A stretch of DNA of 64,000 nt from Synechococcus sp. MIT S9220 (GTDB lineage: Bacteria; Cyanobacteriota; Cyanobacteriia; PCC-6307; Cyanobiaceae): positions 1,178,001 to 1,242,000 of the forward strand of contig NZ_CP047958.1 in assembly GCF_014304815.1 (NCBI RefSeq), given 5' to 3'. Of this stretch, positions 2,222-41,857 are shown one piece after another. The translations under genes and the position numbers were made by a program. Numbering within the stretch: the first letter of the stretch is position 1; each line of letters starts with the position of its first letter. Under the pieces are notes generated by a model. It was given only the letters and a program-made list of their open reading frames with translations. It was not told where the DNA came from and ran no database searches.

Positions 2222-2815
2222 ATGAACAGACAACAGATCAGACGCAATGCACGGGTTGAACATCACATGCGCCTTGTGGAACCGCTGGCCAGAGGTTATG
2301 CGGCAAAAAGTGGTCAGGACCCCGATGACCTTCTGCAAGTGGGCTTGATGGGGTTACTGCGGGCCGCTGAACGCTATGAAGGCCAAAGGAAGATTCCTTT
2401 CTCAGCCTTTGCTCGACCCCACATCAGAGGGGCGATCCTGCATTATCTGCGAGACAAAGCCGCCATCATTCGGCTCCCGCGAGCGTTGCAAAGCAGCGAT
2501 CGCGATGTCGGCGCCGGATTTAATGCAGCCAGTCAGCAACGTCGACTGGTGTCACTGACCGATGACCTGATCAGCCAGGAGACTGACGCCACGATTGAAC
2601 TGGATCGATCTGAATTCCGGCGGCAGCTCAGCCAGGCGATACAACGACTCTCGAGACAGGAACGGATTGCGCTTGAGGAAGTGATCCTCAAAGGGCAAAG
2701 CTTGAGAGATGTTGGCAATCAAACTGGCGTCAGCGCCATGACCATTCAACGTCGAGTGAAGCATGGTCTTGCCCAGATGCGTCAACAACTCACAGATCAG
2801 TTGGAACCGGCCTGA
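2222..2815 (+). CDS. RNA polymerase sigma factor, sigma-70 family group 3 (SigF/SigB-like)
   Basis: A 197-residue sigma factor lacking region 1.1 and most of region 3. Region 2 (about residues 15-85) contains DDLLQVGLMGLLRAAERY and FSAFARPHIRGAILHYLRD, the core-binding and -10 recognition helices. Region 4 (about 140-190) contains LSRQERIALEEVILKGQSL and an HTH, VSAMTIQRRVKHGL. Size and layout match the small alternative sigma factors of cyanobacteria (SigF/SigB/SigG-type), which act in stress responses or surface-structure expression; the exact class is not decided by the sequence alone. It is followed by a convergent small gene whose 3' end overlaps by 19 bp. Confidence 0.88.
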   Translation: MNRQQIRRNARVEHHMRLVEPLARGYAAKSGQDPDDLLQVGLMGLLRAAERYEGQRKIPFSAFARPHIRGAILHYLRDKAAIIRLPRALQSSDRDVGAGFNAASQQRRLVSLTDDLISQETDATIELDRSEFRRQLSQAIQRLSRQERIALEEVILKGQSLRDVGNQTGVSAMTIQRRVKHGLAQMRQQLTDQLEPA

Positions 2816-2979
2816 TCTCGTTCGATCTGCTGCTCAAGTGTGCTGATTGCTGCTGTCACAGCTGCAATTTGACGCTCAAGTCCGTCCCGCCAGAAGCGCA
2901 TCATGCGCAATTTGCGTTCTTGGTGATGACGCTGCCAGTCGCCATCAGCGCAGGGTGAGCAGCCAAAAGGAGGAAACAT
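2797..2979 (-). CDS. Small conserved-type hypothetical protein (60 aa)
   Basis: A 60-residue reading frame starting MFPPFGCSPCADGDW, followed by a basic helix (QRHHQERKLRMMRFWRDGLERQIAAV) and a short coiled-coil-like tail ending in QIERDQAGSN. The N-terminal Cys-Pro-Cys pattern and amphipathic helix look like a real small cyanobacterial protein rather than noise. It is convergent with the sigma-factor gene and overlaps its last codons by 19 bp. A longer start at 3027 is possible. Function unknown. Confidence 0.55.
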   Translation of the reverse strand: MFPPFGCSPCADGDWQRHHQERKLRMMRFWRDGLERQIAAVTAAISTLEQQIERDQAGSN

Positions 2980-3115
2980 CCGGAGGGTTGTTAACTCCAT
3001 CCATCCTGGCGAGAACGGCACCCTCACTGCGTCATCGGGATTACTTGGCGGTTTTTTCTCTGGCGATTAGGTTTGGAACTTGGGCCCCTCCAAGGCCACC
3101 AATCACCAGTCGCAA

Positions 3116-4735
3116 GTGTCTCATCGAATCCCACTACTGGTCTTGATTGGCGTCTCGGCTGGGATGGCCGCGAGCGAACTTGCTCGGCCTGTTGAGGCCT
3201 ATGTGCCATTGATGGCTGGTCAACGAGCAAGACCTCTACATGGCAGCTTCAACAATGTGCCGGTTCTTCACTCCAATCAGCCGGAGATTGTCAAAGGGCC
3301 AGGAATTCTTGTAAATACCTTGCCTGGCAGTTCAATTGCTGCTGAAACCAACCAACCGCTGAAGAACTCAACATTCACATTCAATGGTGAATTTGGGGTT
3401 CATATGCATCACAAATATTACCCACAGGATTCCAGCAAACTGGGAGGACGCAGAGCCCGAGGCCTGTTGACTGTTGCTGCCATTGCCATTAACCCTGGCA
3501 CAACACCCGTTACTTTGCGATTCAAAAAGGGTTCTGTCAAAAATAGTTTTGAAGCTCCATATCACCCCAATAAATTGATGGGAGTGAAGCCGTTAGGCCC
3601 CAGACCTTGGAACACGGGGCCTGGAGATGCGACGGCAGTTCAGATTCTTCGTGGCGAACTGGATCGCAATCTTTCCAGAGAAGTTGTGATTCCGCCGAAC
3701 AGTCGCAAAGTGATTGTGAGCACGGTTCTGCCCGCTCGCGGAATCATGAATGGACTTCTGCGTGGCAGCAGCAACGGCCCCTTCCAAATGGCTGTAATTG
3801 CAGCTGAAGGAACCCAGGATGAACATGCACTGATTGCTGTGCTTGACCGTGGACGACTTGCGCCAGGAAGAATTTATCTCAATCGTATTCGTGAGATTCA
3901 GTCAGGACAAGTGTTCTCCCGAGTTGCAGGAGTTGCACTTGGCGATGAGTATAAAGCTTCCATTCAGCACGACCTCTCTCAAGGCTCATTGCATGTGCCT
4001 TTGACCAGCACACGAAAGCATCATTTCGGGACTCGAGATATTCAGGTCAATAAACTCAGTACCCGCATGGTGGATTCAGCTGTCAATAATGTTGGCACTT
4101 ACGGAGTCCGTTTTGATGTTGATCTGAATCTTGCCGGCGAGGGTGCTCATGAGCTTGTTCTCAGTCATCCTGTTGCCTCGGGTCGCTCTCCATTTACAGC
4201 CTTCCGTGGATCAATTGGCATCAAGACTCAACGGGGATATCAAGAAGTCCATGTTGGGATGCGCTCCGGACAGAGTCTTTCCATTGCCGATCTAGATCTC
4301 AAGCGTGGATCCAACAACCCTGTCACGGTGAGTGTCGTCTACCCCGCCGATGCCACGCCGGGTCACTTGCTCAGCGTGGTTCCAGTGACGCAGTTGGCCA
4401 TGTTGCGTGAGCGTCAACAAATGTTGAAAGCGGCACGCAAGGCGCAGGCCGAAGCCAAGGCGCGCAAGGTCAAACCAGAAGTGGCTCCACCTGCTGTCAA
4501 TGCGCAACCTGCACCTGAAGTGATGCCTGCTACGCCCGTTGCACAGCCCACTCCGCAGCCTGTCAGAACCGTTGCGACTCCACCACCGCCTCTACCCGTG
4601 GCTCCCAGGGGTGGCACCAGTGTCATGACTCCTGCAATGATCATGCCGACAAGAGTCAACAGCAGCCTCGAGCAGCGTTACCGTGACGCCATCCGTGCCC
4701 AACAGGACTGGTTGCGTCGTCTGCAGGGTCGATAA
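3116..4735 (+). CDS. DUF3370-family exported protein
   Basis: About 539 residues from a GTG start (a TTG at 3080 is an alternative). A signal peptide covers residues ~1-28 and ends in a VEA-like cleavage site, so the protein is probably periplasmic or outer-layer. The body (about residues 35-430) has the DUF3370 pattern: RPLHGSFNNVPVLHSNQPE near the mature N-terminus, then FNGEFGVHMHHKYYPQ, then AIAINPGTTPVTLRFKKGS, suggesting a beta-sandwich. The last ~110 residues are alanine/proline/lysine rich with a helical end (YRDAIRAQQDWLRRLQGR). The coding region is more AT-rich than its neighbours between about 3300 and 4300. The family is cyanobacterial and its function is unknown. Confidence 0.75.
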   Translation: MSHRIPLLVLIGVSAGMAASELARPVEAYVPLMAGQRARPLHGSFNNVPVLHSNQPEIVKGPGILVNTLPGSSIAAETNQPLKNSTFTFNGEFGVHMHHKYYPQDSSKLGGRRARGLLTVAAIAINPGTTPVTLRFKKGSVKNSFEAPYHPNKLMGVKPLGPRPWNTGPGDATAVQILRGELDRNLSREVVIPPNSRKVIVSTVLPARGIMNGLLRGSSNGPFQMAVIAAEGTQDEHALIAVLDRGRLAPGRIYLNRIREIQSGQVFSRVAGVALGDEYKASIQHDLSQGSLHVPLTSTRKHHFGTRDIQVNKLSTRMVDSAVNNVGTYGVRFDVDLNLAGEGAHELVLSHPVASGRSPFTAFRGSIGIKTQRGYQEVHVGMRSGQSLSIADLDLKRGSNNPVTVSVVYPADATPGHLLSVVPVTQLAMLRERQQMLKAARKAQAEAKARKVKPEVAPPAVNAQPAPEVMPATPVAQPTPQPVRTVATPPPPLPVAPRGGTSVMTPAMIMPTRVNSSLEQRYRDAIRAQQDWLRRLQGR

Positions 4736-4770
4736 TTAAACCTGCTTGACGGTCAGCAAGTCAGATCCTT

Positions 4771-5853
4771 ATGAGCGGCAAGCGCATCAGCCTGGAATTA
4801 CCCGAGGAGCTCGTCGACCAGATTGATCAGCTTCGCAAAGATTGGAAGACTCGTTCCAGGGGGGAATGTCTTCAACGGTTGCTTGAGGAAATCTTTCAGC
4901 CCGATCTTGATCAGAATGAGTCGCCCGGTTCACTGATTGATCCACCGATTGATCTGTCTTCCGAGGGCACGGCGGAGCAAGCTGATTCTGAAGCTGCGGA
5001 TGGTTCCAAGGCTTTGCTTGCTCCACAACCGATCCAACAGCCTCAGTACGACGAGGATCGCGCCATCGTTTTAGTTGGTTCATCTGGGGGATTAGAGACG
5101 ACAGGTCAGGACGATGACCGTCCCGCACCTACACGACCAACGACACGCAGTGCATCCCCTACGGGGGTTGGTATTGATCTGCCTGGTTTCGTTCGCAAGC
5201 GCAGCACTGCGATTCGCGAAAGCCTCACGCCACAGAATCAACCCAGCACCGAGATTCCCGTTGTTCCGGTGATCAGTGATCAGCAGATCAAGGATTGGTT
5301 TGAAGTAGCTCTCAACCATTGGCTCAATCTGTATGGTTCCAACCCTGGCCCCACCGTGATGGAGGCCGTGATGTTGTGGATGGCTCGTGATATCTGGCCC
5401 CATATCGATGGATCCGAGGGGCGCACATTCACTTGGAGTCAGGTCAATCACTCCATGACCGAATTCTGCAAAAGCTGGATGGTTCCTTCTCCTCGCTTTG
5501 AGCAGGTGATCGTTGCTGCCGCGGTTCTTGAGGATCCCTTTGCCAGCGCTTCAGTGCCAGACCGAATCCCAACGCTGATTCGTCGTTTCGTGAGCCGCTT
5601 CAAGCGCAGCCGCAAGGTCACATCCTTCGAAACGCTTGAGTCCACGATGACTCTGCATGGTGCGCTGAAACAACTTGAGTTGCCCACGCAGGCTGGCCAA
5701 TCGTTGACATTGCGCTCGATCCGCGACGCCTACAAGCGCAAAGCCGTTGAGGTTCACCCTGACTCGGGAGGTTCAACCGATGCCATGCGCCGACTGAACG
5801 AGGCTTATCAGATGCTGAAAGAGCTTTATCGCCAGAAAGAATTGTCTCACTAG
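4771..5853 (+). CDS. Ribbon-helix-helix (CopG-like) / J-domain fusion protein
   Basis: A 360-residue soluble protein. Residues 1-45 (KRISLELPEELVDQIDQL...) look like a ribbon-helix-helix DNA-binding unit. Residues ~50-150 are a low-complexity acidic/proline linker. Residues ~170-290 form a helical domain rich in tryptophan. The C-terminus (about 305-358) resembles a J-domain, with helix YKRKAVEVHPDSGG containing the HPD triad near residue 329 and RRLNEAYQMLKELYR as the following helix. J-domains stimulate Hsp70 (DnaK) ATPase. The combination suggests a DnaK partner tethered to DNA or to an oligomeric RHH scaffold. That role is inference; the gene is not one I can name. Confidence 0.7.
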   Translation: MSGKRISLELPEELVDQIDQLRKDWKTRSRGECLQRLLEEIFQPDLDQNESPGSLIDPPIDLSSEGTAEQADSEAADGSKALLAPQPIQQPQYDEDRAIVLVGSSGGLETTGQDDDRPAPTRPTTRSASPTGVGIDLPGFVRKRSTAIRESLTPQNQPSTEIPVVPVISDQQIKDWFEVALNHWLNLYGSNPGPTVMEAVMLWMARDIWPHIDGSEGRTFTWSQVNHSMTEFCKSWMVPSPRFEQVIVAAAVLEDPFASASVPDRIPTLIRRFVSRFKRSRKVTSFETLESTMTLHGALKQLELPTQAGQSLTLRSIRDAYKRKAVEVHPDSGGSTDAMRRLNEAYQMLKELYRQKELSH

Positions 5854-5923
5854 TCTTCTTTAAGCCTCTATCCTGGACTCATCTCGGTTCTTATTTGAGT
5901 CTTCCAAGAGATCTCTCCTTCTG

Positions 5924-6139
5924 TTGATTCAATCCCTCAGGCTCCCGGCTATTGAGATTCGATCGTTTCTATCAAGATCTCATTTTTTGATTGTTTTATT
6001 TGCGGCATGTATGTCTTTGCAGGTGTACCTGACGCGTTGGCTTTTGATTGAGCATCACAAATTTCACCATCTTGAGATGGATCAGTGGCTGTCCAACGAG
6101 CCAATGAGCCTGTCCAGCGGTATGGCCGGAGGCCCATAA
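5924..6139 (+). CDS. Possible small single-pass membrane protein
   Basis: A 71-residue frame from a TTG start with one hydrophobic stretch (about residues 20-37, FLIVLFAACMSLQVYL) followed by a histidine-containing segment (LIEHHKFHHLEMDQW) and a glycine-rich end. An ATG at 6011 would give 42 residues. No family recognised. Minus-strand frames overlap the same region, so the call rests only on the membrane-segment/amphipathic layout. Confidence 0.3.
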   Translation: MIQSLRLPAIEIRSFLSRSHFLIVLFAACMSLQVYLTRWLLIEHHKFHHLEMDQWLSNEPMSLSSGMAGGP

Positions 6140-11289: not shown

Positions 11290-11511
11290 ATGTCGAGCTC
11301 CTTCTTCAAGAAGCGCCTTTCGCCAATCAAGCCCGGCGATCCCATCGATTACAAGGATGTGGATCTGCTGAAGAAATTCATCACAGAGCGCGGCAAAATT
11401 TTGCCCAGACGCCTCACTGGCCTCACTGCAAAACAGCAGCGTGATCTCACCAACGCTGTGAAGCGTGCACGGATCGTTGCTTTGCTGCCTTTTGTGAATC
11501 CCGAGGGTTGA
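11290..11511 (+). CDS. rpsR: 30S ribosomal protein S18
   Basis: 73 residues: [19 protein letters not shown], then [44 protein letters not shown], the classical S18 core that binds S6 and 16S rRNA. It lies 38 bp after rpmG. Its stop (11509-11511) is directly followed in the same frame by the RNB exonuclease reading frame, and its last codons contain GAGGG (11503-11507), which may serve as ribosome-binding site for that gene. Confidence 0.97.
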
Positions 11512-11514
11512 TTC

Positions 11515-13554
11515 CTGGCCACTACTGACTGCAAACCGGGAGATCTGGTCGGCATCAGCGACCTCAAATCATCTCAACTTGCAGTTGTACTAGCCGTCCA
11601 AGGCAGCAAACGTCGTTTGAGTGTTGGTTTTCGAGGCAAGGAACAAGTCGTTCCAGCCCGGACCATCGAGTTGATTCACCCCCAGCCTGGCGACGTAGAT
11701 CCGTCGTCCCGGTTGGGGGTTTTTCCATGGACTTTCGACGAGGAGGATCTCGTTCAAGCCAGTCCCAACTGTCGCGACTGGGGCGAAGCATGGGTCTTAA
11801 TACGTGAATCAGAAGAGACTATTGATCTCACTGGATTCACGGAGCTGGCTTGCGGCACTGATGCTGCGATCAGCAAGGCTGCCTGTTGGCTTGCTTTGCA
11901 TCGAGACCAGGACTTTTTCCGTTTGAAACAGGGAGTGATTCAGGCCCGGTCTGCTTCTGAGATCCGCAGCCGTCGTGCTGAACGGCGCATGCAGATCAAG
12001 GCTGAACAGCAAAGCAAACGATGGATCCAGGTGTTGAAGACACGTCAACCCGTGGTCTTCCACACGCTTGATTCTCTCCACCAGACATGGATCAAGTGCA
12101 TGCAAGAGCTGGTTGGCGAAGGCGATGAAGGCGCCCAACTCGATGCTCAGCTGTTGCAGTCACTGAAAACCGCGCGCGTCAATGCCAACGCCAGTGATCT
12201 CCGGCATCTGCTGATTCAGCTTGGCCAGTGGGATGAGCATCAACCTGCCTCGATGACGGGCACACCCTGGAGCAATGGTTTCAGTCAAACGCTGCTCTTT
12301 GATGCCAGTCAGCTGGTCGACAACAGTGAGGAAATGCTTCCGGGAGATGAACACAGGCATGACCTCACGGCTCAGGCTTGCGTCACCATCGATGATGCGG
12401 AGACCAGTGACATCGACGATGCGATTGCTCTGGAACGTCGACAAGACGGATCCGAACGTCTCTGGATTCATATTGCCGATCCAGGACGCTTGGTCCCTGA
12501 GGGGTCACCCTTGGATCTCGAAGCTCGACGCCGTGGCAGCAGCCTTTATCTGTCGCGGGGCAATCTTCCCATGTTTCCGCTTGAGCTTTCGACAGGACCC
12601 TTCAGTCTCAGAACCGGGCGTCGCAATGCTGCCTGGAGTACCTGGGTCGATCTCGATCAACACGGTGACATCAGTGATTTCGGAATCCTGCGCAGCTGGG
12701 TCACCCCGCGGTACCGCCTCACCTATGAGGATGCCGATGAATTAATTGATTTCGCTCCACCTGAAGAGGCAGATCTTTCGGATCTGCATCAACTGCTGGA
12801 ACGCCGTCGACGTTGGCGGACAGATCAGGGTGCACTGCAGATGGACCTGCCAGAGGGTCGTATCCGATGCCGTGATGGTGAGCTGTCCGTGCAGGTCACC
12901 GAGCCTGGTGCTTCAAGGACAATGGTGGCTGAGGCCATGATCCTCGCTGGAGCCGTTGCTGCCCGGTTCGGTTCGACCCACAACTTGGCATTGCCCTATC
13001 GCAGTCAGTTACCCGCCGACCTTCCTTCGGCACATGAGCTTGAGCAGCTACCGGATGGAGCCGTTCGATTTGCTGCCATCAAACGCTGTCTGAGCCGTGG
13101 ACTGATGGGAACTCAACCCTCACCTCATTTCAGCCTTGGCCTCAACGCCTATGCCCAGGCCACCTCGCCAATCAGGCGATACGGGGATCTTGTTGTGCAG
13201 CGCCAGATCGCCGCTGTGATCAACGCTGAAACCCCGCTCAGCGAGGAGTCAGTGCAAGAGCTGATCGACAGCTTTGATTCAGCTGTACGCGAAGGGCTCA
13301 CCATCTCAAGGGAAGATCAGCGTCACTGGCAACAAGTCTGGTTCGAGCATCATCAGACCCACCAGTGGCCGGTGGATTTCTTGCGCTGGCTGAGACCTCA
13401 GGACCGGTTGGGGTTGGTTCGTCTGGATGATCTGGCCATGGATGTTGCCGCTGAGTGCCCTGCCGGAGCGATGCCTGGAGATGGTCTCGTGCTGAAAGTC
13501 GATCAGGTTGATTCCCAGTGTGATCAACTCAGACTGCTTGCCGTAGCGCGTTGA
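11515..13554 (+). CDS. RNB-domain 3'-5' exoribonuclease (RNase II/VacB type, intact catalytic site)
   Basis: About 679 residues if translation begins at the CTG at 11515. No ATG/GTG/TTG lies in frame between the S18 stop and the TTG at 11617, yet the intervening codons (KPGDLVGISDL, QLAVVLAVQGSKRRL) look conserved and form a KOW/OB-like N-terminus. The catalytic RNB domain carries the aspartate cluster IDDAETSDIDDAIAL (about residues 290-306) and TSPIRRYGDLVVQRQ (about 552-565). These bind the catalytic magnesium ions and the RNA. It degrades RNA from the 3' end and probably acts in rRNA/mRNA turnover. No S1 domain is evident. It is translationally coupled to rpsR. Confidence 0.88.
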   Translation: MATTDCKPGDLVGISDLKSSQLAVVLAVQGSKRRLSVGFRGKEQVVPARTIELIHPQPGDVDPSSRLGVFPWTFDEEDLVQASPNCRDWGEAWVLIRESEETIDLTGFTELACGTDAAISKAACWLALHRDQDFFRLKQGVIQARSASEIRSRRAERRMQIKAEQQSKRWIQVLKTRQPVVFHTLDSLHQTWIKCMQELVGEGDEGAQLDAQLLQSLKTARVNANASDLRHLLIQLGQWDEHQPASMTGTPWSNGFSQTLLFDASQLVDNSEEMLPGDEHRHDLTAQACVTIDDAETSDIDDAIALERRQDGSERLWIHIADPGRLVPEGSPLDLEARRRGSSLYLSRGNLPMFPLELSTGPFSLRTGRRNAAWSTWVDLDQHGDISDFGILRSWVTPRYRLTYEDADELIDFAPPEEADLSDLHQLLERRRRWRTDQGALQMDLPEGRIRCRDGELSVQVTEPGASRTMVAEAMILAGAVAARFGSTHNLALPYRSQLPADLPSAHELEQLPDGAVRFAAIKRCLSRGLMGTQPSPHFSLGLNAYAQATSPIRRYGDLVVQRQIAAVINAETPLSEESVQELIDSFDSAVREGLTISREDQRHWQQVWFEHHQTHQWPVDFLRWLRPQDRLGLVRLDDLAMDVAAECPAGAMPGDGLVLKVDQVDSQCDQLRLLAVAR

Positions 13555-35168: not shown

Positions 35169-35537
35169 GTGACTCGCTCTCAACTCCATTGGTCCTGCAT
35201 GGACCAGTGCGGTGCCTGCTGCCGATTGGCACCTGATGAACGCCCGGAAGCCGTTGAGGCTCTGAATCCTCTTCAGCAGCAGCAATATCTATCGATGGTG
35301 GGTGACGATGGCTGGTGCATTCATTTCGACAGTGGATCAAGGCGTTGTCGGATTTATGACTCCCGTCCAGATTTCTGCCGCGTCAGCAGTCTCTGCGGCT
35401 TGTTCGGCATCGAACCCGATCAGATGGACCGATTTGCGATCGATTGCTGCCGACAACAGATCCGTTCAGTTCATGGCGGTCGCAGCAGGGAACTGCGTAA
35501 GTTCGAACGTCTCATCCGTTCAACGGATCCTTTGTGA
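35169..35537 (+). CDS. YkgJ-family cysteine-cluster protein
   Basis: 122 residues from a GTG start. The N-terminal CMDQCGACCRL is the metal-binding CxxxCxxCC cluster. Further cysteines lie in GWCIHF, RCRIYDSRPDFCRV and SLCGLFGI. The family (UPF0153/YkgJ) is thought to bind zinc or iron. The ATGA overlap with the following gdt1 gene and the shared direction suggest one operon with the two GDT1 genes. Confidence 0.85.
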   Translation: MTRSQLHWSCMDQCGACCRLAPDERPEAVEALNPLQQQQYLSMVGDDGWCIHFDSGSRRCRIYDSRPDFCRVSSLCGLFGIEPDQMDRFAIDCCRQQIRSVHGGRSRELRKFERLIRSTDPL

Positions 35538-35866
35538 TGACTGATTCCGGCACCCCACCACGTCCTGGTTTCACCACCGTCCTTCTGACGACATTCACAA
35601 CGGTTTTTCTGGCCGAGCTTGGCGATAAAACCCAACTCGCCACACTTTTACTGTCTGCTCAATCGGGGCAACCTTGGCTTGTGTTCGGTGGTGCGGCACT
35701 GGCGTTGATCTGCTCCAGCCTTGTCGGCGTGTTGGTGGGACGTTGGCTATCAACAGTGATGCAACCGGAACGGCTCGAGCAGATGGCCGGCCTGTTGATG
35801 CTGGGACTGGGGTTATGGCTCGGTTCCCAGGCACTGCAGTCGTTGATTTCCGCCAACCCTCTCTAA
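35534..35866 (+). CDS. GDT1/TMEM165-family protein, half-size (first copy)
   Basis: 110 residues, three membrane helices. The family motif ELGDKTQLATLLLS sits in the first helix. In eukaryotes the protein has two such units in one chain; here each unit is a separate gene. The family transports manganese and/or calcium against protons, and in Synechocystis the homologue exports manganese. It overlaps the YkgJ gene stop (ATGA) and is followed 42 bp later by a second copy. Confidence 0.88.
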   Translation: MMTDSGTPPRPGFTTVLLTTFTTVFLAELGDKTQLATLLLSAQSGQPWLVFGGAALALICSSLVGVLVGRWLSTVMQPERLEQMAGLLMLGLGLWLGSQALQSLISANPL

Positions 35867-35908
35867 AAGGACTCTCTCGATCGATTGGCCTTTGAACGCT
35901 TTCTTGTC

Positions 35909-36214
35909 ATGGATCTGACCCTGCTTCTGTCCACGTTCGCCACCGTTTTCCTCGCTGAACTCGGCGATAAAACCCAACTCGCCACCGTGGCAATTAGCGG
36001 AACATCCAACCGCCCCTTGGCCGTGTTTCTCGGTTCATCATCAGCGCTTGTGCTGGCAAGCCTGATCGGTGCCATCGCCGGAGGATCACTGTCAGGCGTT
36101 GTGCCTGCCGACTGGCTGCAGCTCATGGCATCACTTGGTTTTCTGGCGATTGGACTGAAACTGCTTTGGCCACTTCTCAGTGGAGCGGAATCAACAGCGA
36201 CGGCCGACGACTGA
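35909..36214 (+). CDS. GDT1/TMEM165-family protein, half-size (second copy)
   Basis: 101 residues from the ATG at 35909 (an in-frame TTG at 35885 would add 8). It carries ELGDKTQLATVAISG in the first helix and three membrane segments. The DNA encoding the GDKTQLA motif is identical to that in the first copy over 23 bp. Most likely it forms a heterodimer with the first copy to build a full transporter. Confidence 0.87.
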   Translation: MDLTLLLSTFATVFLAELGDKTQLATVAISGTSNRPLAVFLGSSSALVLASLIGAIAGGSLSGVVPADWLQLMASLGFLAIGLKLLWPLLSGAESTATADD

Positions 36215-36336: not shown

Positions 36337-38700
36337 ATGAAATTCACGGTCGCTGACCTGCTCGACCAGGTTCCAGAAGAGGGCAATCTTGAGATTGCCA
36401 AGCTTGAAAAGATCCTGCGACTGACCAATCGTTCAGAGAAACAGTCTCTCGAGCTTGCTGTCCAAGGTCTGACAAGGCTTGGAATACTTGATCTCGATAG
36501 CGATCGAGCCATCAGCAGGGGAACATCAGTCGATCTGGTCGAAGCACGTCTTCGCTGCAGCAGCAAAGGATTCTGTTTTGCGATTCGTGATGACGGCGGG
36601 GATGACATCTATATCCGTGATCATCAACTCAATCATGCCTGGAACGGCGATCGGGTCCTTGTCAGGCTCACGCGTGAAGGAGGAAGACGCCGTTCCCCTG
36701 AAGGAGGAATCCAGTGCATTCTTGAGCGGGCCACCACAAGCTTGCTTGCTTCGGTGGAACAACAGGATGACCGCGTGATCGCCGTTCCACTCGACGACCG
36801 TTTACTGGCATCGATTGAACTTTCTCCCGACGATGCGCCCCATGCGGAACAACCGATTGGGATGGCCGTTGCAGAAGTCGTGCTGGATCGCTATCCAATC
36901 GCACAGTTTCCGGCACGCGGGCATGTCGCTCGATCGCTTCCCCTCGATGGTGGTGCTGGAGCTGATCGTGAGCTGATGCTAACCAAGGCCAATCTTCATC
37001 AGCGGCCGGCTGCTCCTCGCGCCAGTTTCAAAGCCCCATCAGCCAAAAAACGCGAGGACCTCACCGAGCAGCCCACGTTGATGATCAGCGGCTGGACTTC
37101 AGATGGCGCTCCAACGCTGCCAGCTGTTCATGTCATTCCTCACGAGGGTGGCACTCGACTATGGATTCATAGCCCCGCCGTGGCCGAGCGCCTGAGCCCA
37201 GGGAACAGTTACGACCAGTGGCTTCTCAATCAGTCAGAAAGCCTTTGTCTCGGTGGACACTGGATTCCATTGCTGAGCCCTGCCCTTGCGAAGGCCGCTG
37301 ATTTTTCCGTCGGGGACGTGCAGGACGCTGTGTCGTTGCGTCTGGATATCGATTCGGATGGTGAGTGGCGCGATTGGGACTTTTGCCTCAGTCGAATTCG
37401 ACCTGTCGCTGAAGTGAAGGCTGAAGCTCTCCATGCTTTGCAATCACGTAAACCAAAGTCGAGAGCAGTTCCTGCCGCTTTGAAGTCGATCAAAGACCAA
37501 ATCGGTCAGCTGGAAACACTGATTTTCTGTGCAACCAAGCTGCATGATGCTGAACGGCGAGAAGGTCGCATCGAACTGGATCTCAAGCGAGCGCAAGCGG
37601 ACGACCTGGGTGATCTCAATCATGTATCGCCTGATGGTGACGGTCAGAATTGGTCAACACCTCTGAATGCCAGTTGCCCGAATTCGGTTCTCTCTGTCCT
37701 GATTCGGCACGCCCATCGTGTTTGGGAAGAACACAGTCGGAGACTGGGTTTACCAGCGATTCTTCTTGACGCTCCACCGGCGGACGATGCCGCTCTCAAT
37801 GATGTTGCCAAGGCTGCCATCGCACTGGATGTGCCTCTTGAACTAGACGAGGATGGTGCTCCCACACCATCTGAACTTTGCCAAGCCTTGGCGAGCAGCG
37901 AGTCGAGTCATGTCCTCAATCTGCAACTGAGGCAGGCGTTGCCAGAGAGTTTCTATCGGGCTTCAAGCAGCAATCAGGAGACCGGTACAGACGGATCTGA
38001 ACAAACATTGAGTGAGTCCACTGTGGATCACTCACCGAATCATTCCGACAACAGCGACGCTGATGGTTCGGGCAAGCAGCCACTTCAACCCCTTGCCCCC
38101 TGGTGCTGCCCAACGCTGCATCAGGCAGATGTCATCAACCAGCAGGTGCTTTGTGCACTGCTCAATGACGGCAAGGATCGTCCAACAGTGCGCCAAAAGA
38201 ACAAAGTCAAACTTGGCGAAAAAGGTGTCGCTGCCTCAGTCAGTTGGCCTTTATTCACGGCATCTCAGGAGCAGAAAATCCTTGACACGATCCGTGAACG
38301 CACAGTGCAGAAGTTGAATGCGCGGCGACGCCAAGTTGAAGAACTGAAAAAGGATGTCTTGGCAATGACCAAGGCTCGTAGTGCAGAGCCCATGCTTGAG
38401 CAGCAGCAGACCGGTGTCATCAGTGGCGTTCAGAGCTACGGATTTTTTGTGGAAATTGCCCCTTCAATGGTGGAAGGTCTTGTGCATGTCAGCTCACTGA
38501 ATGATGACTGGTATGAATATCGATCCAGGCAAAACCGCTTAGTTGGCCGAAGAAGCAGGCGCGTCTATCAGTTGGGTGACAGCGTCGAAGTGAAAGTGCT
38601 CAAGGTTGATGTGTTGAGAAACCAAATCGATCTTGAAGTGGTTCCTGCCACGACACCAGTTGCTGAGGATCCCCTTCCGGTGGCTGTGAGCGAGGAATGA
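36337..38700 (+). CDS. RNase R-like RNB/S1 protein with a degenerate catalytic site (pseudoenzyme)
   Basis: 787 residues. The N-terminal winged-helix/cold-shock region (about 1-110, e.g. SKGFCFAIRDDGGDDIYIRDH) and the C-terminal S1 domain (about 690-770, GVISGVQSYGFFVEIAPSMVEG) are normal. The RNB domain is recognisable (GTRLWIHSPAVAERLSPGNS, parallel to ERLWIHIADPGRLVPEGS in the intact paralogue at 11515-13554). However, the aspartate cluster that should read like IDDAETSDIDDA is replaced by SGWTSDGAPTLPAVHVIP. The SPIRRY motif is replaced by CPTLHQAD. A Ser/acidic insertion (about 550-590) interrupts the domain. It is probably RNA-binding but unable to cut. Confidence 0.85.
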   Translation: MKFTVADLLDQVPEEGNLEIAKLEKILRLTNRSEKQSLELAVQGLTRLGILDLDSDRAISRGTSVDLVEARLRCSSKGFCFAIRDDGGDDIYIRDHQLNHAWNGDRVLVRLTREGGRRRSPEGGIQCILERATTSLLASVEQQDDRVIAVPLDDRLLASIELSPDDAPHAEQPIGMAVAEVVLDRYPIAQFPARGHVARSLPLDGGAGADRELMLTKANLHQRPAAPRASFKAPSAKKREDLTEQPTLMISGWTSDGAPTLPAVHVIPHEGGTRLWIHSPAVAERLSPGNSYDQWLLNQSESLCLGGHWIPLLSPALAKAADFSVGDVQDAVSLRLDIDSDGEWRDWDFCLSRIRPVAEVKAEALHALQSRKPKSRAVPAALKSIKDQIGQLETLIFCATKLHDAERREGRIELDLKRAQADDLGDLNHVSPDGDGQNWSTPLNASCPNSVLSVLIRHAHRVWEEHSRRLGLPAILLDAPPADDAALNDVAKAAIALDVPLELDEDGAPTPSELCQALASSESSHVLNLQLRQALPESFYRASSSNQETGTDGSEQTLSESTVDHSPNHSDNSDADGSGKQPLQPLAPWCCPTLHQADVINQQVLCALLNDGKDRPTVRQKNKVKLGEKGVAASVSWPLFTASQEQKILDTIRERTVQKLNARRRQVEELKKDVLAMTKARSAEPMLEQQQTGVISGVQSYGFFVEIAPSMVEGLVHVSSLNDDWYEYRSRQNRLVGRRSRRVYQLGDSVEVKVLKVDVLRNQIDLEVVPATTPVAEDPLPVAVSEE

Positions 38701-39305
38701 TTCCCTATGTAATTGGTATCAGCGGAGCTTCGGCACAACAACTGGCTGAACGCACATTGCAGTGGATGCTGCGACGAGATCTCAGCGTTCATGTGATTCT
38801 CAGTCGTGGCGCGCACGAAGTCTGGCGTGCTGAACGGTCGATCTCGGTGCCTGTGGATCCCAAGCTTCAGGAAAGTTTCTGGCGGGATCGACTTGGGGTG
38901 AACGATGGTCAACTGATCTGTCATCGCTGGAATGATCAATCAGCTGTTATTGCCAGCGGCAGTGTGCGCACCAAAGGCATGGTTGTTGTGCCCTGTTCCA
39001 TGGGAACCGTGGGTCGTCTCGCGGCAGGACTTGGCGGTGACCTGCTTGAGCGCTGTGCTGACGTCCATCTCAAGGAAGGACGACCTCTCGTGATCGCTCC
39101 AAGGGAAATGCCTTGGAACCTGTTACATCTGCGCAATCTCACGACCCTCGCTGAAGCAGGAGCAAGAATTGCTCCTCCGATCCCGGCCTGGTACACCCAG
39201 CCTGAAAGCATCGACGACATGCTCGATTTTCTGGTGATGAGGCTCTTTGACTCGTTAGGGGAATCCCTCACCGATCAGAAACGTTGGCAGGGGCCTCAGC
39301 CATGA
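38697..39305 (+). CDS. ubiX: Flavin prenyltransferase UbiX
   Basis: 202 residues. GISGASAQQLAERTLQWML is the FMN-binding segment. VVVPCSMGTVGRLAAGLGGDLLERCADVHLKEGRPLVIAPREMPWN matches the UbiX/Pad1 core. UbiX makes prenylated FMN, the cofactor of UbiD decarboxylases in quinone biosynthesis. The ATG at 38697 overlaps the stop of the RNB pseudoenzyme (ATGA). Confidence 0.93.
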   Translation: MIPYVIGISGASAQQLAERTLQWMLRRDLSVHVILSRGAHEVWRAERSISVPVDPKLQESFWRDRLGVNDGQLICHRWNDQSAVIASGSVRTKGMVVVPCSMGTVGRLAAGLGGDLLERCADVHLKEGRPLVIAPREMPWNLLHLRNLTTLAEAGARIAPPIPAWYTQPESIDDMLDFLVMRLFDSLGESLTDQKRWQGPQP

Positions 39306-39859: not shown

Positions 39860-40702
39860 GTGAGCGAAACCCCCGACACTCCTGCCAAGCCCGAAACACC
39901 TGATCTACCTGCAACGACTGCAGGTGTTGAAGATATGGCGGATGCGGACGTGACTGTCTCCCCAGGCAAGCCAAGCAAGACTGAAGCAGCGGCCAAAGCA
40001 GCAACGGCAGAGAAAGTCCAACCAGCAGCAGCAGCAGCCAAGCCAGACAAGACGCAAGCGCCTTCCAAGCCGGATCAAGCAGAGAAGACCGATCCAGCTC
40101 AGGAGAAGGTTGCCCCCGTCAAAGCTGACCCATCGGTCAGTGCTGATCCTGCTGCGGCAAAGGCAGACAAGACGAAACCGCCTTCCAAGCCGGAACAAGC
40201 AGAAAAGCCTGATCCCACGCAACAGAAGGCTGCTCCTGTCAAGGCTGACTCATCAGCCAGTTCTGCTCCAGCTGCGGCCAAGGCAACGAAGACGGATGCC
40301 ACGGATAAACCCGCCAAACCAGCGAAACCCGCACCAAAACCCAAACCGGAGGACAAGCCATTTACCAACTTCATCCAGGAGGATCTGCTTCCATCACTGA
40401 CCAAATCTTTGACCGCGCGCGAACAAGCGCCGATCAGCCTCACGCTTGTTGAGGGAGAACGCCCGGTGGTGGGTGGGCGTTGTTGGATGGTTCAAGGCGA
40501 ATTGCCTTCAGAACGTCGGTTCTGGCTTTGTTTTGAAGCCGATGCGATCACGTCGGGCAAAACGATCGCTCTTGCTGAATCCGGTTCAGATCCAAGCCTG
40601 CTCGAATCGTTCCTGATCGATGAGAAACGCATCAACCTGGCCTTGCTTGAATCTCGACTGCTCCAACGTCTGAATGGTCAGAAGTGGTTCGGAGGCAACT
40701 GA
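39860..40702 (+). CDS. DUF2996 protein with Lys/Pro/Ala-rich repeats
   Basis: 280 residues from a GTG start. Residues ~1-160 are low-complexity Lys/Pro/Ala/Asp, built from a 40-residue unit (120 bp) present about 2.3 times. The C-terminal domain (about 165-278) is DUF2996: PFTNFIQEDLLPSLTKSLT, FLIDEKRINLALLESRLL and QRLNGQKWFGGN. The domain is cyanobacterial and its function is unknown. The repeat array is likely disordered and may bind a partner or nucleic acid. Confidence 0.8.
   Translation: MSETPDTPAKPETPDLPATTAGVEDMADADVTVSPGKPSKTEAAAKAATAEKVQPAAAAAKPDKTQAPSKPDQAEKTDPAQEKVAPVKADPSVSADPAAAKADKTKPPSKPEQAEKPDPTQQKAAPVKADSSASSAPAAAKATKTDATDKPAKPAKPAPKPKPEDKPFTNFIQEDLLPSLTKSLTAREQAPISLTLVEGERPVVGGRCWMVQGELPSERRFWLCFEADAITSGKTIALAESGSDPSLLESFLIDEKRINLALLESRLLQRLNGQKWFGGN
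40031..40300 (+). repeat. 120-bp tandem repeat inside the DUF2996 gene
   Basis: Unit 1 at 40031-40150, unit 2 at 40151-40270, and a partial unit 3 from 40271. Each unit encodes 40 residues (lysine, proline, alanine rich); both full units contain GCCTTCCAAGCCGGA at the same phase. The period is exactly 120 bp. Confidence 0.85.
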
Positions 40703-40774
40703 ACCAATGGGTTACACCCAGCCCCGGCTGTGCCAGGACTGCATTTACGATGCTGAAAACACACGTTGGATCTG

Positions 40775-41857
40775 ATGGTGCCTCCCACCGCTGTGAATGA
40801 CGCAAAATCCGGGGGTTCCGGCGTCGCCGTCAAAGATCCGGTCAAGGACACGATCCTGACGCCCCGCTTCTATACAACTGATTTTGAAGCCATGGCGGAG
40901 ATGGATCTCCGCCCCAATGAGGCTGAGCTCGAGGCGATCTGTGAGGAGTTCCGCAAGGATTACAACCGTCACCATTTTGTGCGTAACGAGGAATTCGACG
41001 GTGCAGCAGACAAACTTGACCCCGAGACGCGTCGTGTCTTCATCGAGTTCCTTGAACAGAGTTGCACCTCTGAATTTTCAGGTTTTCTTCTCTATAAAGA
41101 GCTGAGCCGTCGCATCAAAGCCAAAAATCCGCTGCTTGCAGAATGCTTCGCTCACATGGCCAGAGATGAAGCCAGACATGCTGGCTTCCTCAATAAATCG
41201 ATGAGTGATTTTGGTCTTCAGCTCGATTTAGGGTTTCTAACTGCAAACAAGAAATACACCTTCTTCAAGCCAAAATTTATTTTTTACGCCACTTACCTCT
41301 CTGAAAAAATTGGATACTGGCGCTATATTGCAATTTTCAGGCATCTCGAAAAGAATCCTGAAAGTAAAATTTTTCCAATTTTCAACTTTTTTGAAAACTG
41401 GTGTCAAGACGAAAATCGCCATGGAGATTTCTTTGACGCCCTAATGAAGTCGCAGCCCGACACCGTTCGCGGTCTGCGTGCCCGTCTCTGGTGTCGATTC
41501 TTCCTGCTTGCAGTTTTCGCCACGATGTATGTCAGGGATGTGGCCCGCAAGGAGTTTTACGAAGCTCTTGGCCTCGATGCTCGCGAGTACGACCGCATGG
41601 TGATCGACAAGACCAACGAGACATCCGCTCGGGTCTTCCCGGTTGTTCTTGACGTCAAAAATCCGCGTTTCTACGAACGGTTGGAAAAAATCATCACGAA
41701 CAACGAGTCACTGGAATCTGTGGATCAGAGTTCATCACCAGCTCCACTCAAATTTGTTCGCAAACTTCCGCACTGGATTGCCAACGGAGCACAGATGGCC
41801 TCTCTCTTCTTGATGTCACCTGTTCGTAGTGAAAACTATCAGCCCAGTGTGCGCTGA
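40775..41857 (+). CDS. acsF: Mg-protoporphyrin IX monomethyl ester oxidative cyclase (aerobic)
   Basis: 360 residues from the ATG at 40775 (a TTG at 40766 adds three). Builds the fifth ring of chlorophyll using O2. The di-iron motifs are [15 protein letters not shown] (about 130) and [13 protein letters not shown] (about 215). The middle section, about 41217-41405, is distinctly AT-rich with runs such as AATTTTCAACTTTTTTG, unlike both flanks. Its partner protein Ycf54 is encoded at 49295-49618. Confidence 0.95.

Follow-up and report, generated by a model that had tools for sequence, protein, structure and literature searches.

A predicted RNase R-type pseudonuclease of the Zam type with an erased RNB active site in Synechococcus sp. 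MIT S9220

Gene, domain structure and neighbourhood

The DNA analysed here is a stretch of 64,000 nucleotides of Synechococcus sp. MIT S9220 (contig NZ_CP047958.1, positions 1,178,001 to 1,242,000), called the window below, and zam, ubiX and rnb, described in what follows, lie on its forward strand. An open reading frame of 787 codons with an ATG start was found at 36337–38700. Judged by Pfam matches, an AlphaFold2 model and fold matches, its product (P0001) is a putative RNase R-type pseudonuclease, and we refer to the gene as zam for the reasons given below. Pfam matches were obtained for RNB (residues 239–610; E = 3.1e-33, 115.9 bits), OB_RNB (71–126; 1.7e-18) and S1 (688–767; 1.7e-12), and the AlphaFold2 model, built on an alignment of 44 rows, reached a mean pLDDT of 84.6 and a pTM of 0.83, with a disordered tail from residue 773. 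The protein could be divided into an N-terminal winged-helix-like region (residues 1–63, 36337–36525), a first cold-shock domain matching OB_RNB (CSD1; residues ~64–134, 36526–36738), a second cold-shock domain (CSD2; ~135–203, 36739–36945), a degenerate RNB domain, also recognised by fold match (~235–650, 37039–38286), with a predicted disordered insert of pLDDT <50 (546–581, 37972–38079), and an S1 domain present in both Pfam and the model (686–770, 38392–38646). The initial annotation had called the winged-helix, cold-shock and S1 modules intact, which is borne out by Pfam for OB_RNB and S1. CSD2, however, scores 23.4 bits vs. a Pfam cut-off of 26.2 and is represented by strands in the model, and the winged helix gave no Pfam match at E ≤ 1 and is represented by helices 5–11, 20–26 and 32–47 and strands 51–53 and 58–61. 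The domain order of RNase R (wHTH-CSD1-CSD2-RNB-S1) is present, with the wHTH and CSD2 taken from the model. RNase R was also the best match in a Foldseek search with the model (8cdu_C, 2.4e-41; 5xgu_A, 1.8e-40), and VIA-align ranked RNase R chains first (Z 33–36), followed by RNase II, Dis3L2, Rrp44 and yeast Ssd1.

As noted in the initial annotation, zam lies directly ahead of ubiX (38697–39305), a gene of the flavin prenyltransferase family, and the two share a 4-base ATGA overlap (38697–38700). Among loci with enough flanking sequence, ubiX lies downstream of zam in the same orientation and no more than 600 bases away in 91 of 107 cases from the Synechococcus/Prochlorococcus/Cyanobium group, to which the window belongs (the window's group), and in 19 of 31 other loci. 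Upstream of zam are two adjacent short ORFs (35534–35866 and 35885–36214), each containing an ELGDKTQLAT motif, which resemble half-size Gdt1/UPF0016 transporters; a match is present upstream of zam at 69 of the 82 loci in the window's group and at 0 of 31 others. An Ala/Lys/Pro-rich ORF (39860–40702) sits between ubiX and the gene at 40766–41857, which is presumably acsF-like, and the same order of zam, ubiX, Ala/Lys/Pro-rich ORF and acsF was observed in locus L122.

The active site of the RNB domain

In E. coli RNase II, the catalytic residues are D201, D207, D209, D210 and R500, and Y253 and F358 stack the RNA (PMC3293843). When the zam protein was aligned with RNase II and RNase R of E. 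coli, these residues had their expected letters in the E. coli row, and the zam protein was found to carry S251, L261 and P262 at the positions of D201, D209 and D210, within the site of the lost Asp cluster (residues 251–262, 37087–37122). At the position of D207 it has G or P, depending on the alignment, at that of Y253 C304 (37246–37248), at that of R500 a leucine and at that of E542 a lysine. The heptapeptide CCPTLHQ (residues 590–596, 38104–38124) replaces TSPIRRY, with CPTLHQ aligning gap-free with SPIRRY, and scanning the whole protein for [DE]-x5-[DE]-x-[DE][DE] gave no match. The loss of the Asp cluster and the change from SPIRRY to CPTLHQ, both proposed from the letters of the sequence, are therefore confirmed, and neither the alignment nor the scan placed acids at the catalytic positions. 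None of the active-site set of RNase R, consisting of four Mg-binding acids, the Tyr and the Arg of SPxRRY, is present in the zam protein. It is predicted to be non-cutting because the magnesium-binding acids, the Arg of the catalytic pocket and the RNA-clamping Tyr are all replaced, which supports the earlier proposal of a non-cutting RNB protein and agrees with the published description of the family. With the NCBIfam equivalog TIGR02063 for RNase R, the protein scored 178.8 bits vs. a cut-off of 597.85, a threshold that the intact Rnb of the window also misses (177.4), as it does the cut-offs of RNase II models. To see whether the dead pocket might hold a second disulfide or a metal site, we also asked whether C304 covaries with C590/C591; in four independent pairs, changes went in the same direction in 1.7 of 4 on average, with a median p of 0.5.

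The genome (one contig of 2,424,175 bases) contains exactly two RNB matches, zam and rnb. The latter is the RNase II-type paralogue at 11515–13554, identified by ORF, Pfam and alignment, and it was rightly described as intact in the initial annotation, since Rnb keeps D-D-D-D and SPIRRY, and D-[DE]-D-D and R500 were kept in 25 of 25 Rnb control rows. Pfam gave no OB_RNB or S1 match for it at E ≤ 1. The start of the ORF is uncertain: it opens with CTG at 11515, and the first ATG/GTG/TTG follows at 11617. Because the protein seems to begin before 11617, CTG or another codon near 11515 is a possible start. In the region 11440–11640, the rnb frame opens directly behind the stop codon of another in-frame ORF located upstream, the tail of which resembles ribosomal protein S18.

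Further RNB proteins were observed elsewhere. Two Acaryochloris plasmid proteins (L155 on pMB01, 3620–5959, and L156 on pMB07, 2408–4279) have the full D-D-D-D set and branch separately from both the Zam and the Rnb clade, and two genomes of family f13 (G109, locus L202, and G056, locus L203) contain a third RNB protein with an open frame of 777 or 740 aa and an intact D-D-D-D beside Zam and Rnb.

Identity as Zam and distribution

According to Thomas et al. (2022, PMC9145284), Zam, the acetazolamide-resistance protein of cyanobacteria, represents a clade of the RNB family that lies next to RNase R and whose active site has degenerated. Judged from its sequence, the ORF at 36337–38700 is zam, the gene of this published cyanobacterial RNB-family pseudonuclease, a name that the initial annotation had missed. 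The degenerate site is thus already known in kind, as a published family trait. The name rests on architecture, active-site loss, the cysteine pair described below and clade membership, because Sll1910 of Synechocystis PCC 6803 and A1543 of Synechococcus PCC 7002 are absent from our set and were compared by description. In the tree, the Zam rows, with the window protein among them, fall into a single 60-row clade (SH-aLRT 100). This clade groups with the RNase R sequences of E. coli and Priestia (SH-aLRT 98), apart from Rnb. This was a quick LG+G4 tree of 75 rows with SH-aLRT values only, no bootstrap and a long-branch warning, and the root order inside Zam was not relied on; it omitted 26 of 101 rows, namely near-duplicates, broken copies and some Rnb.

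A survey of presence and absence gave a match in 186 of 386 genomes of a phylum sample at E ≤ 1e-5, all 186 belonging to the window's class. The 20 misses listed were all from outside this class; 180 more lie beyond the list. RNB proteins of any kind were present in three of the 20 listed genomes, all three keeping D-D-D-D; the remaining 17 of these phylum members (within G001–G029) had no RNB-family match. A plasmid search for zam relatives returned 42 records, none covering 80% of the query. We also observed that the MAG contig CALPNT020000003.1 (L110), titled Bifidobacterium breve, bears a cyanobacterial zam with 48% identity to that of the window; the title is probably a mislabel.

Graded loss of the active site

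To describe the active site across cyanobacteria, we used an outer set of 49 Zam rows from outside the window's family and an inner set of 119 rows of the window's group, representing 115 distinct sequences. Two outer loci were dropped (L170, which is the same gene as L129, and L205), whereas L057, which is truncated by the end of its contig, and L206, which aligns poorly around the active site, were kept in the counts. As the best 80 of 154 loci are among the inner rows, distant members of the window's group are under-sampled.

At the four acid positions, three acids were present in 4 of the 49 outer rows, two in 25, one in 18, none in 2 and all four in 0, with counts at position 207 being soft because it adjoins gaps and its letter varies between alignments. 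R500 was kept in 24 and E542 in 41 outer rows. Asp at both 209 and 210 occurred in eight (L115, L116, L125, L128, L143, L144, L149 and L163), which also had Tyr/Phe at 253 in 8/8, R500 in 7/8 and E542 in 7/8 cases; seven of these eight rows were present in the tree and form one clade (98). The row of genome G027 comes close to the canonical site with D201, D209, D210, Tyr253, R500 and E542. Five rows of family f7 lack the canonical acids, with E-V-E-N (three times), A-V-E-N and V-T-E-N at the four positions. Among the 119 inner rows, which include the best 80 of 154 loci, there was no acid at 209 or 210 and no Arg at 500; the letters were mostly Leu at 209 (112 rows), Pro at 210 (107), Cys at 253 (108) and Leu at 500 (93). 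The active site is thus far more thoroughly erased in the window's group than in other Zam, and its loss in the window protein is no accident of a single genome. Thomas et al. state that no Zam has a canonical active site (PMC9145284), and none of the sampled Zam has the canonical four-acid site, in agreement with this statement, although some lineages are close to it. The gradation of D209-D210 and the SPxRRY Arg, the group-only residues and the third CSD1 cysteine described in the next two sections, and the adjacency of zam and ubiX are absent from the part of the text of PMC9145284 considered here. What is new is that the window's group carries a more completely erased, perhaps re-purposed Zam.

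Broken or strongly diverged copies were also seen. In genome G241, zam (L205; offsets 2230 and 2886 of the plus strand) is broken into two frames of 281 and 475 aa, and its relative G085 has a strongly diverged copy of 699 aa (L206).

Selection and remodelling in the window's group

In comparisons with L033, L034 and L035, the dN/dS of the whole gene was 0.116, 0.127 and 0.086, respectively, and that of the RNB part 0.112, 0.115 and 0.098. Values for CSD1 were 0.025–0.029, the dN of S1 was 0 vs. L033 and L034, and the disordered insert reached 1.5–1.8, resting on few sites. The gene is under purifying selection and not decaying. CSD1 and S1 are the most conserved parts of the protein in the window's group, with a mean pairwise identity of 0.802 for CSD1, as compared to 0.465 for the RNB part, which is among the least conserved.

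Within the RNB part (residues 235–545), 22 columns reach a conservation of at least 97% among sequences of the window's group, and 14 of them are group-only (W253, P259, W276, E284, R285, W309, F349, R371, K372, L382, K383, K386, P432 and G507). A column was called group-only if its letter differs from the one in the majority of outer rows, the count being made over 115 inner and 31 outer rows. The corresponding numbers elsewhere are 3 of 28 near-invariant columns in CSD1, 0 of 10 in CSD2 and 2 of 36 in S1. A long stem of 1.13 changes per column (support 100) leads to the window's group, and L122 branches next to it (99). The group-only columns suggest that the RNB domain was re-fitted in the window's group, but common descent and the length of this stem could produce them as well.

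Redox cysteines in CSD1

Zam contains two invariant redox-active cysteines in CSD1 which are needed in vivo (PMC9145284). In PCC 7002, a C73S or C79S exchange phenocopies the deletion, with slower growth, less phycocyanin and an altered PSI:PSII ratio, and the gel mobility of the protein shifts with its redox state (PMC9145284). The initial annotation had overlooked this pair, which is present in the L12 loop of the Zam-type CSD1 of the window protein as C74 (36556–36558; C73 in PCC 7002) and C80 (36574–36576; C79 in PCC 7002). After removing the window copies L002 and L003 and the E. coli row L153 from this and the later counts, C74 was found in 150 of 150 and C80 in 149 of 150 Zam rows. A third CSD1 cysteine, C127 (36715–36717), occurs only in the window's group (119/119 inner vs. 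0/31 outer rows). The redox pair is also retained in four rows of the window's family from genomes of 1.6–1.7 Mb, probably Prochlorococcus (L132–L135). Prochlorococcus-like genomes of this type are not known to encode phycobilisomes, and the target of Zam therefore need not be phycobilisome genes.

Proposed function and alternatives

The explanation which we favour, with moderate confidence, is that the marine-Synechococcus-type Zam serves as a redox-gated, non-cutting accessory of RNA and/or RNase E. A protein which keeps the RNase R architecture and is predicted to be unable to cut RNA would act through its OB-fold domains, with CSD1 and S1 contacting RNA and/or RNase E. This contact would be switched by the reversible formation of a C74-C80 disulfide within the RNA-contact loop of CSD1, according to the redox state of the photosynthetic cell, and mRNA turnover may thereby track photosynthesis. 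By analogy with the work on Synechococcus PCC 7002 and Anabaena, we infer that marine Synechococcus Zam modulates RNase E or RNA via CSD1/S1 under redox control. The window protein keeps R73, K77, F79 and F81 in CSD1, residues of the kind named by Thomas et al. for the RNA-contact loop (PMC9145284). Together with the conservation of CSD1 and S1, they make the RNA binding proposed in the initial annotation plausible, although purified PCC 7002 Zam showed neither nuclease activity nor RNA binding, with aggregation as a caveat (PMC9145284). The link to RNase E comes from Anabaena Alr1240, which binds RNase E and enhances its cleavage (PMC10989914, PMC9145284). Thomas et al. take Alr1240 as Zam (PMC9145284), while the order of a table in PMC10989914 (sll1290; sll1910 / all4450; alr1240) only hints at this identity. 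If Alr1240 is indeed a Zam, the nuclease activity reported for it, described below, weighs against the favoured explanation. Among the literature matches listed, with Prochlorococcus as the one genus of the group searched by name, there was no experimental work on Zam of the window's group.

An alternative which we regard as unlikely is that the protein resembles yeast Ssd1 in binding specific mRNAs via CSD1/S1 and a re-modelled RNB surface, controlling their translation or fate independently of RNase E. The pseudonuclease structure of Ssd1 (7am1_A) aligns with the model over 598 residues at Z 29.9, conservation concentrates in CSD1 and S1, just as the cold-shock domains are conserved in fungal pseudonucleases (PMC8097288), and most near-invariant RNB columns (14 of 22) are specific to the window's group. 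However, the published in vitro RNA binding of Zam was negative (PMC9145284), and because active RNB enzymes match the model with equal or higher Z, the match to Ssd1 says nothing of function.

That the protein acts as a decoy or direct regulator of the active paralogue Rnb, as the initial annotation had suggested, is possible in principle, but we found no specific support for it and consider it improbable. The two are RNB proteins of one cell, in fact the only two of the genome; however, PCC 7002 requires rnb but can do without zam (PMC9145284), each RNB gene can be inactivated in PCC 7942 (PMC10989914), and the partner reported for the presumed orthologue in Anabaena is RNase E (PMC10989914). 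A weakly active or re-invented nuclease using other acids appears very improbable for the window protein. Alr1240 was reported to degrade unstructured RNA (PMC10989914), which would conflict with the notion that all Zam are dead if Alr1240 is a Zam. The 8 of 49 outer rows with D209-D210, the four with three acids and the near-complete G027 point in the same direction. On the other hand, acids at 209/210 and Arg at 500 are absent from the inner rows (0/119, including the best 80 of 154 loci), D209N alone abolishes the activity of E. coli RNase II (PMC3293843), and the window protein has no alternative acid cluster of canonical spacing. Residual nuclease activity is therefore plausible for some outer lineages and hardly for the window protein. 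A pseudogene or annotation artefact, for which nothing but the fast-evolving disordered insert speaks, is practically out of the question in view of the 787-codon open frame, a dN/dS of 0.09–0.13 in three comparisons, the S1 dN of 0 vs. L033 and L034 and relatives in 186 genomes of the class.

The reading of Zam as a redox-gated accessory can be extended, if only tentatively: the dead RNB domain may have been rebuilt as a binding surface (W253, W276, E284, W309, R371, K372, K383, K386 and W589) and the CSD1 switch may have gained C127, both on the long stem branch, while a clade from other cyanobacteria that retains D209-D210 and an SPxRRY-type Arg may still cut RNA, so that Zam might include an enzyme and its dead descendants. 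The interest of the case lies in this gradation of site loss and the possible group-specific rebuilding. Zam would link RNA turnover with the photosynthetic redox state, the series from near-complete to fully erased active sites offers a direct test of when a nuclease became a regulator, and the group-only conserved residues name a candidate surface for mutation in marine picocyanobacteria.

Comparison with known RNB proteins

The window protein shares with Zam (Sll1910 and A1543) the CSD-RNB-S1 architecture, the degenerate RNB site, the cysteine pair of CSD1 and the position of its clade beside RNase R. The window's group differs from other Zam in lacking D209, D210 and R500, in having mostly Cys at the Y253 position, and in carrying C127 along with further conserved residues specific to the group. 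RNase R of E. coli and Priestia, the sister group in the tree, has the same domain order and fold, but the E. coli enzyme keeps D-D-D-D, the Tyr and SPIRRY, none of which is present in the zam protein. Cyanobacterial Rnb (Sll1290, for which RNase II-type activity has been published (PMC3293843), and the window's 11515–13554) has the RNB domain in common with the zam protein but, unlike it, retains the active site. Yeast Ssd1 and the other fungal pseudonucleases derived from Dis3L2 are likewise RNB proteins without catalysis and with conserved cold-shock domains (PMC8097288); because they descend from Dis3L2, the catalytic loss in Ssd1 is separate from that in Zam.
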